DNA of 38,430 nucleotides from Natronohydrobacter sp. (GTDB lineage Bacteria; Pseudomonadota; Alphaproteobacteria; Rhodobacterales; Rhodobacteraceae), in NCBI GenBank assembly GCA_007116445.1, contig SKIM01000207.1:1-38430 (forward strand), given 5' to 3'. The stretch's first letter is position 1. Each line of letters opens with the position of its first letter. The notes below the pieces were generated by a model. That model had not been told where the DNA came from and made no database searches. It was given only the letters and a program-made list of their open reading frames with translations. A program made the translations under genes and the position numbers. Of the stretch, positions 1,638 to 5,488 are shown piece by piece.

Positions 1638-2696
1638 TCAGAGCCATTCGTCGCGTCCGGTGCCGACAGCATCTGACAATGTCGTGAACCCGTCGCGGTC
1701 GAGCAGAGCGAGCAGGCCGCGATTGATCTCGGAGACGAGCGAAAGCCCTTGATAGCTGAGCGCAGTATAGAGCTGCACCACTGTCGCCCCGGCACGAATC
1801 TTCGCATAGGCGTGTTCGGCTGTGGAAATTCCGCCCACGCCAATCAGCGGCATCCTGCCTGCCGTGAGCTGTGACAACCGCGCAAGAATGCGTGTCGAAG
1901 GCTCGAAGAGCGGTGCGCCGGAGAGCCCGCCCTTTTCATGAGCATGCCTGCTTTTCAACCCGTCACGCGCGAGTGTGGTATTTGTAGCAATGATGGCATC
2001 CACACCGCCTTCGGAGGCGACCTCTGCCAGTTCGGCAAGATCACGCTCTGCGAGGTCCGGGGCGATTTTGAGAAAGACGGGGATCGGGCGTTCGAGCGCC
2101 GACCGCGCATGCATCACACCTTCGAGCAAGGCTCCAAGAGCGGCAGCGCCTTGCAGGTCTCGCAAGGATTCGGTGTTCGGCGACGACACGTTGATCGTCG
2201 CGAAGTCGATATGCGCGCCGCAGGTGGCAAGCACGGAAGCGAAATCCTGCGCGCGATCCGCACTGTCCTTGTTCGCCCCCAGATTAAGACCAAGGATCAT
2301 GCCTTCGGGGCGCTTGGCCAGTCGCGCGGCAATCGCAGCCGCGCCGTCATTATTGAAGCCGAAGCGATTGATCACGCCGCGATCTTTTTGCAGGCGGAAC
2401 AAGCGCGGGCGGCGATTGCCCGGCTGCGCGTAGGGTGTGGCGGCGCCGACTTCGACGAAACCAAATCCAACGCGGGAGAGCCCGCGCAAGGCTGCCGCAT
2501 TCTTGTCAAACCCCGCAGCCAGTCCCACGGGATTTGGAATATCCAGTCCCGCCAGCCTGACCTTCAGGCGCGGCGATAGGACTGGGGCAGGCATCGGCAC
2601 CACACCTGAACGCAGCGCCGTGAGTGCCACGCCATGCGCTCTTTCAGGATCTAGGCGACGCAAAAACGCAAGCCCGGTCCGTTCGAGTATGTTCAT
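1638..2696 (-). CDS. pyrD: Quinone-dependent dihydroorotate dehydrogenase (class 2)
   Basis: From [25 protein letters not shown]...; contains '[13 protein letters not shown]', '[15 protein letters not shown]', '[19 protein letters not shown]'. The ORF-track start (2822) is upstream of the likely true start at 2696. Confidence 0.95.
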
Positions 2697-3031
2697 ATCA
2701 GCCCCTCGGGAAAAATATGGCCGCTGGCACCGAGCGGCAATGCCTTGTCCCAGGTCACATCCGAGAGGCGCAAGGGACGGTAAAGATGCGGAAACAGCGC
2801 GCCCCCGCGCGATGGCTCCCATTTCAGCTCCGGGCCAAGATCATCAGCACGAACCGCCACAATGACCAGATTACTTTCCTGCGTGAAATGCCGCGCAGCC
2901 GTTTCCATCACCTGCTGCGCAGTCGAGAAATGGATATAGCCATCAGAGATATCGACGGGTGCGCCAAGGGTCTCGCCTCTGGCCACCAGATCGTCCCATT
3001 CAGCGCGGCGGAAAATCTTGTAAATCAGCAT
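2693..3031 (-). CDS. DUF952 domain-containing protein
   Basis: [49 protein letters not shown]...; overlaps the pyrD start by 4 nt (ATGA), suggesting translational coupling. Confidence 0.85.
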
Positions 3032-3377
3032 GGCACGTCTTTTGCCCAAAGCTGCGGAGGGCGTCAATCTCTGAGAACGCGATCTGGCGAAAGGGCAAGG
3101 GCCTGCCGACGATGCGTCGGTTCCATATCCGACTGGCAATGCTGTTTTGAAATATTGCCACCGCCCCTCTGCCGAGCATGGATCCTCGACTGTCGCAAGA
3201 TATGCTGCTGGACACGCATCAAACGCCGCCCAATCAGGCTGACCCGAAGGCACACCAATCATGAGTTCACTCATCAACACGGAGATGATACGCCCTAGCA
3301 TCGGGTCTGGAATGCACTGTCTGGTTGATTGCGGGCATCGAAAATCAGGTGCATCACAGCTTGCCACTATCGCTGTG

Positions 3378-3833
3378 CTAGAGTGGCCCGGACAGGCGTT
3401 CCTCGCTGAGCAGGACATTGGCATCGACCGCGCCGACCCCCGGCAAGGTCATGATCCGGCGGCGCAACACACGTTCGAAATCGGCCAGATCACGCGCCAC
3501 CACCCGCAGCCGGTAGTCATAGAGCCCGAGCACATGCTGCACGCTCTGGACTTCGGGGATGGCCACAACGGCACGTTCAAAATCCGCCAGCGCGACGCGG
3601 CCCTTGGCTGCGAGGCTGATCCCGAGAAAGACTGTAACCCCGAAGCCCAATGCCTCCAGGTCGAGATCGACGCGCTGGCGCGCGATCACCCCAGCTTCGC
3701 GAAGCCGCTTTACGCGCCGCCATGCTGCAGGCTGGCTCAGCCCGAGCTTTCGACCCAGCGCGCCGGCACTCTGCGTGGCATCTTCGCTCAGAGCGCGCAA
3801 AATTTCACGGTCCAGATCATCGAGCGTGATCAT
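3378..3833 (-). CDS. Lrp/AsnC family transcriptional regulator
   Basis: N-term 'LDDLDREILRALSEDATQSAGALGRKLGLSQPAAWRRVKRLREAGVI' HTH plus RAM-type C-terminal domain. Confidence 0.93.
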   Translation of the reverse strand: MITLDDLDREILRALSEDATQSAGALGRKLGLSQPAAWRRVKRLREAGVIARQRVDLDLEALGFGVTVFLGISLAAKGRVALADFERAVVAIPEVQSVQHVLGLYDYRLRVVARDLADFERVLRRRIMTLPGVGAVDANVLLSEERLSGPL

Positions 3834-3873: not shown

Positions 3874-4332
3874 TCACAATGGAAGGCTCCCTTCGGATTT
3901 GATGTCGGAGAGGTGCATCAGTGCTTCGAGATCGGAGATATGGGGCAAGGCCAGAATTCTGTCGCGATACAGTTCACGGTAATGGGCCATATCGCGCGCG
4001 ATGACATTCAGACGCATATCGACACGACCCAGAAAACTCTGGATTTCCAGAACCTCGGGCACAAGGCGGGCCGCGGAGGTGAATTCTTCAAAGGCGCGCG
4101 GGGTGGTCTTGTCCAGCGTAATACGCAGGCTGACTTCTACCTCATAGCCGAGCGCGCGCCAGTTGATCACAGCGCGCTGGCCACGCAGGATGCCGGCGCT
4201 GCGCAGCCGCTCCAGCCTGCGCCAGCACGTCGCCTCGGTCACATGGGCGCGAGCTGCAAGCTCCGCCGTGCTGGCCTCGGGTGTAGCGATAAGCTGACGG
4301 AGCAGCCTGCGATCACTGTCGTCAATACGAAT
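3874..4332 (-). CDS. Lrp/AsnC family transcriptional regulator (tandem paralogue); start apparently non-canonical ATT at 4332
   Basis: The ORF track starts at an internal GTG (4242). Reading upstream in frame gives (ATT)RIDDSDRRLLRQLIATPEASTAELAARAHVTEATCWRRLERL, a full Lrp HTH. GGAG lies 7 nt upstream of the ATT. No in-frame ATG/GTG/TTG lies between the upstream TAA and the HTH start. Confidence 0.8.
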   Translation of the reverse strand: MRIDDSDRRLLRQLIATPEASTAELAARAHVTEATCWRRLERLRSAGILRGQRAVINWRALGYEVEVSLRITLDKTTPRAFEEFTSAARLVPEVLEIQSFLGRVDMRLNVIARDMAHYRELYRDRILALPHISDLEALMHLSDIKSEGSLPL

Positions 4333-4387
4333 GATTTTTCTCCATATTTTTATAAGAACGAATGTTTATTGCAGGTATATGCCATAA

Positions 4388-5488
<1,101 letters not shown>

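Follow-up and report, generated by a model that had tools for sequence, protein, structure and literature searches.

In bacteria, AUU start codons and noncanonical starts of transcription regulators (sigR and ccpN) are already known; few natural AUU starts occur in genes other than infC. IF3 represses noncanonical starts, as in the case of infC and sigR (PMC5472188). In Staphylococcus aureus, where cvfC1 starts at AUU, natural AUU and AUA sites give about 10% of the output of AUG in poor medium (PMC13009471). In one large reconstruction, 61,358 ancestral AUG starts yielded just one switch from AUG to AUU (PMC5622118). Our literature search, whose coverage was partial, retrieved neither an ATT start for an Lrp gene or for Rhodobacter, nor a switch from AUG to AUU at the level of a clade whose sister species preserve the ancestral state.

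The present work concerns a stretch of 38,430 nucleotides (hereinafter, the window) assigned to Natronohydrobacter sp., which is one contig of a draft genome of 2.4 Mb in 361 contigs, 83.6% complete. The comparisons reported below suggest that the Lrp gene linked to ilvC is translated from the AUU at positions 4332-4330, a reading to which we assign a probability of roughly 0.87.

Gene Organization and Protein Family

The gene lies on the reverse strand and, if read from the ATT, spans positions 3874-4332 (152 codons plus the stop). It is followed on the same strand by a tandem Lrp paralogue (3378-3833), about 36% identical to it, whose product of 151 amino acids has almost the same length, as the initial annotation had pointed out. 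The branched-chain amino acid gene ilvC (4466-5488, forward strand) is divergently oriented, 133 nt from the ATT. A tblastn search placed ilvC upstream of lrp in 84 out of 85 loci, and in the remaining one (L038, at a contig end) the gene was recognized by reading the DNA. Since the two divergent genes occur together in practically every one of the 85 loci, ilvC is probably the target of the regulator. By eye, the order lrp, second lrp, small protein gene, and dihydroorotate-dehydrogenase-like gene (1638-3833 in the window) also appears to be kept in a relative (L127).

The Pfam analysis of the ATT-initiated protein revealed a complete AsnC-type helix-turn-helix (HTH) at residues 3-44 (PF13404, 43 bits versus a cut-off of 27), a domain that also matched PF13412, and an AsnC ligand-binding (RAM) domain at residues 71-141 (PF01037, 49.7 bits versus 25). 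The score against the enterobacterial Lrp equivalog NF008370 was 72 bits, below the cut-off of 233. On the basis of these profiles, the regulator is a member of the Lrp/AsnC family and not an Lrp equivalog.

The Reading Frame Around the Start

Starting from the upstream in-frame stop TAA (4368-4366, reverse strand), the frame reads ACA TTC GTT CTT ATA AAA ATA TGG AGA AAA ATC ATT CGT ATT GAC GAC. A codon-by-codon reading agrees with the earlier statement that no in-frame ATG, GTG, or TTG occurs between this stop and the HTH, and CTG is absent as well. The first canonical in-frame codon is the GTG at 4242-4240 (codon 31), located within the HTH; the ORF finder begins the gene there because the stretch between the TAA and the HTH lacks all four of these codons. 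That this called start is internal to the HTH, and that the frame upstream of it restores a full Lrp N-terminus, is borne out by the sequence and by the Pfam match, respectively. Gene callers limited to ATG, GTG, and TTG thus remove half of a DNA-binding domain in this case.

The coordinates proposed for the ATT and for its Shine-Dalgarno (SD) element also hold: a GGAG at 4343-4340 ends 7 nt 5' of the ATT, and its duplex with the anti-SD has an energy of -6.4 kcal/mol. An out-of-frame ATG at 4345 opens a short frame (4345-4322, reverse strand) overlapping both the SD and the ATT; as previously described, it encodes only MEKNHSY before a TGA. The initial annotation had left three options for this region, that is, an ATT start, a start controlled by slippage on the A-tract, and a sequencing indel. 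The comparison with the orthologous loci favored the first and spoke against the other two.

The Start Codon in the Orthologues

The best matches found elsewhere carry names such as Roseinatronobacter, Natronohydrobacter, Roseibaca, and Rhodobacteraceae draft genomes. The set of orthologues comprises 33 genomes of the genus (Roseinatronobacter/Natronohydrobacter) with a readable N-terminus, the window included; among the 35 other genomes of the genus, two had no full-score orthologue and one had its gene cut off at the end of a contig. In 30 out of 33 orthologues the column of the ATT is occupied by an ATG, in the same frame and with no indel, and the protein starts with MRIDDSDRRLL or a close variant. 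The other three have ATT: the window, together with L037 and L038, the two species nearest to it (93% and 91% protein identity, respectively), each from an assembly of its own. The genomes of this trio all seem to have been assembled from metagenomes. Outside the genus, the loci of the family that were inspected have an ATG in the start column or at most two codons away.

The ATT is not a chance occurrence, because it falls exactly in the orthologous start column, with ATG in the 30 relatives and ATT in the two nearest species. The codon preceding it varies across the trio (ATC, CCT, and ATA) and the ATT itself is constant; 21 of the 26 internal isoleucine codons are ATC. In a tree built on codons 2-152, the three ATT genes form one clade (support 100/99) and the start-codon label requires one change, so that a single ATG-to-ATT change, later retained, represents the simplest history. 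This change is specific to the lrp gene, as judged from its neighbors, since the tandem paralogue starts with ATG in 33 out of 33 loci and ilvC does so in all 31 readable ones.

These data bear directly on the possibility of a sequencing or assembly error, according to which the AAAAA run contains one A too many and a true ATG start is thereby masked. The loss of one A would indeed bring the ATG at 4345 in frame (MEKIIRIDD...), L038 is arranged alike, and the window comes from a fragmented draft assembly. Nevertheless, the ATT occupies the same column in two other assemblies, and the error would have to recur in several of them; L037 has neither such an ATG nor an AAAAA at that place; and all 30 ATG orthologues start in the ATT column and not 13 nt upstream. 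The refuting condition set in the initial annotation, a conserved in-frame ATG in the orthologues, gave an informative picture here, as the 30 ATGs coincide with the ATT codon itself and the two closest species share the ATT. An error is thus very improbable; because of this sharing, the ATT is in all probability genuine, a weak start passed on by descent.

The same loci were informative about a programmed frameshift, or a transcriptional slippage, on the A-run by which the Lrp frame would be joined to the ATG upstream. In each of the three ATT species the relative frame of the nearest upstream ATG is the same, and ATGGAGAAAAAT is common to the window and L038. A run of five A's is, however, short for slippage, L037 has four A's with its ATG 31 nt upstream, and the ATG of the window overlaps the SD and has no SD of its own. 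Furthermore, the direct replacement of ATG by ATT accounts for all the observations by itself, which leaves slippage with hardly any likelihood. As in the window, no canonical in-frame start precedes the conserved N-terminus in either sister species, and the only upstream in-frame candidate in L037 is a distant CTG. On the whole, the indel, the slippage on the A-run, and the GTG start (see below) are disfavored because the orthologues contradict each of them, L037 most directly, and an ATT start inherited by the three species is the reading that we retain.

A family-wide pattern search for an ATT followed by an Lrp N-terminus in 397 genomes, which required CRN at codon 2 and so was not exhaustive, retrieved the window and three others. 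The matches in G254 and G293 are Lrp-like and have an in-frame ATG two codons upstream, and that in G125 is not an Lrp gene; all were discarded. Likewise, an ATT in the same column in Falsigemmobacter (L065 and L068) and Gemmobacter lanyuensis (L099) was rejected as a start, an ATG being present two codons upstream.

Selection on the Gene

Within the ATT trio, dS ranges from 0.39 to 0.81 and dN/dS from 0.05 to 0.09 over the gene. The identity is 84-90% in the gene versus 62-69% in the intergenic region. As far as codons 2-30 are concerned (about 23 synonymous and 64 nonsynonymous sites), the window differs from L037 by 11.5 synonymous versus 2.5 nonsynonymous differences and from L038 by 14 versus 7; between L037 and L038, which show few changes in this region, dN/dS is 0.32. 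According to these substitution patterns, the N-terminal codons as well as the remaining gene are under purifying selection, and codons 2-30, which a GTG start would omit, are read as coding.

This has a bearing on the internal GTG (4242-4240, reverse strand), from which a truncated protein of 122 residues, missing half of the HTH, would be made. This codon is the choice of the automatic caller and is present as codon 31 in all three ATT species; however, the 30 codons upstream of it are conserved as protein, with mostly synonymous changes, and match the full N-terminus of the 30 ATG orthologues, and an SD at the proper spacing is absent. We therefore reject it as the main start and consider its use as such most unlikely.

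A further explanation might be that the start codon was lost and that the gene is decaying or silent in the clade. AUU is a poor start, and a G-to-T change in such a codon is typical of the first step of gene inactivation. However, the frame is intact in three species, with the low dN/dS values given above persisting at a dS of up to 0.8, and a strong SD is retained. These data imply that the gene remained functional for a considerable time after the switch, and decay is accordingly a highly doubtful interpretation. The preferred reading is thus still that of a working gene that starts at ATT.

Shine-Dalgarno Element and Start-Site Context

In all three ATT species an SD-like core ends 7 nt before the ATT. 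For these species, the energies of pairing with the 16S tail amount to -6.4, -5.1, and -6.4 kcal/mol, versus +0.4 to -5.5 kcal/mol in the 30 ATG orthologues (Mann-Whitney p = 0.003, counting three related species as independent). An SD pairing unusually strong for the genus is therefore suggestive only, because the three species are related and may represent one event. A tendency for stronger SDs to accompany weaker starts has been published, and the present values are in line with it; in alphaproteobacteria that trend was not significant for substitution rates (PMC5622118). Folding of the region near the ATT did not detect a reduced mRNA structure (-9.5, -10.8, and -8.9 versus -2.0 to -14.7 kcal/mol).

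The preceding codon, AUC in the window and AUA in L038, could contribute to initiation; from that position the SD spacing is only 4 nt, and the codon is not conserved in L037. The window (4322-4345) and L038 share ATGGAGAAAAAT, which embeds the out-of-frame ATG overlapping the SD and its short overlapping frame, and which is absent from L037. This ATG could compete with, or be coupled to, the ATT start.

Other blocks were observed in the lrp-ilvC intergenic region (4333-4465 in the window). A CGCAGTATAGG block is kept in the window and in L037-L064, and its reverse complement resembles the -10 element of ilvC. A ATCATTCG-like block lies about 30 bp before the lrp start in the same loci and is perhaps an Lrp operator; ATTCG recurs at the start codon itself in the ATT genes.

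Apparent Noncanonical Starts of infC in the Genus

In five genomes of the genus (L121, L122, L123, L124, and L125), including those of both sister species with the ATT, infC reads as starting at a conserved ATA with an upstream AGGAG, AGGA, or comparable element. In four out of five there is no canonical in-frame start upstream of the ATA within the open frame, and in the fifth (G020) a GTG occurs a few codons upstream. The assembly that contains the window, 83.6% complete, yielded no infC. The automatic annotation probably misplaces the start of infC in this genus. Because infC reads from ATA, and given the analogous cases of E. coli and S. aureus infC, the genus seems able to use AUH starts, with discrimination by IF3.

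Possible Mechanism and Comparison with Known Systems

The most likely scenario is the following. The ancestral AUG changed to AUU once, through a single G-to-T substitution, in the ancestor of a small Roseinatronobacter-type clade, and the AUU has been retained in three species. The initiator tRNA would read AUU with a third-position mismatch, and hence inefficiently, so that the regulator would be made at a low level, with the SD partly compensating for the weak start. If the discrimination exerted by IF3 were lowered, the output of the regulator might rise, as for infC and sigR elsewhere, and through an IF3-responsive regulator the state of translation initiation would bear on how the neighboring ilvC is controlled. 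By analogy with infC, pcnB, sigR, and ccpN, the output of the regulator is most likely low and potentially IF3-sensitive. A stronger proposal is that the AUU represents a selected control point, where the IF3-dependent synthesis of Lrp ties amino acid biosynthesis to initiation and the SD has been strengthened to hold a useful output; we regard it as a speculative idea, with the odds against it. The switch on one branch, with ATG in 30 relatives versus ATT in three species, provides natural allele pairs for testing the cost of the change, the compensation by the SD, and the regulatory effect.

The Lrp gene can be compared with four systems. Like infC of E. coli and other bacteria (AUU, AUC, or AUA), it combines a near-cognate AUH start with an SD and is conserved rather than accidental; however, IF3 is itself the product of infC, which closes a feedback loop, whereas for Lrp there is no such loop and any effect of IF3 would be a one-way input. 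The sigR gene of Streptomyces also encodes a regulator of transcription, begins at a noncanonical codon that is conserved, has a strong ribosome-binding site, and is annotated wrongly by gene callers (PMC5472188). It differs in that it encodes a sigma factor, starts at GTC, and is under an experimentally shown IF3 control (PMC5472188); the SD of the Lrp gene is much shorter. A parallel can also be drawn with ccpN of S. aureus (AUA), which encodes an HTH-type regulator of metabolism; its near-cognate start is conserved, its SD is strong, and its output is about 10% of that of AUG in poor medium (PMC13009471). In that case the start is conserved between S. aureus and B. subtilis and the SD is extended (PMC13009471), whereas the ATT of lrp is confined to a small clade with GGAG or GAGAG. 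Lastly, pcnB of E. coli has an AUU in a gene that does not encode an initiation factor, thought to keep its product low (Binns and Masters 2002, as cited in PMC13009471); it encodes a poly(A) polymerase and has no relation to Lrp, and for Lrp the ancestral ATG is still visible in the sister species.
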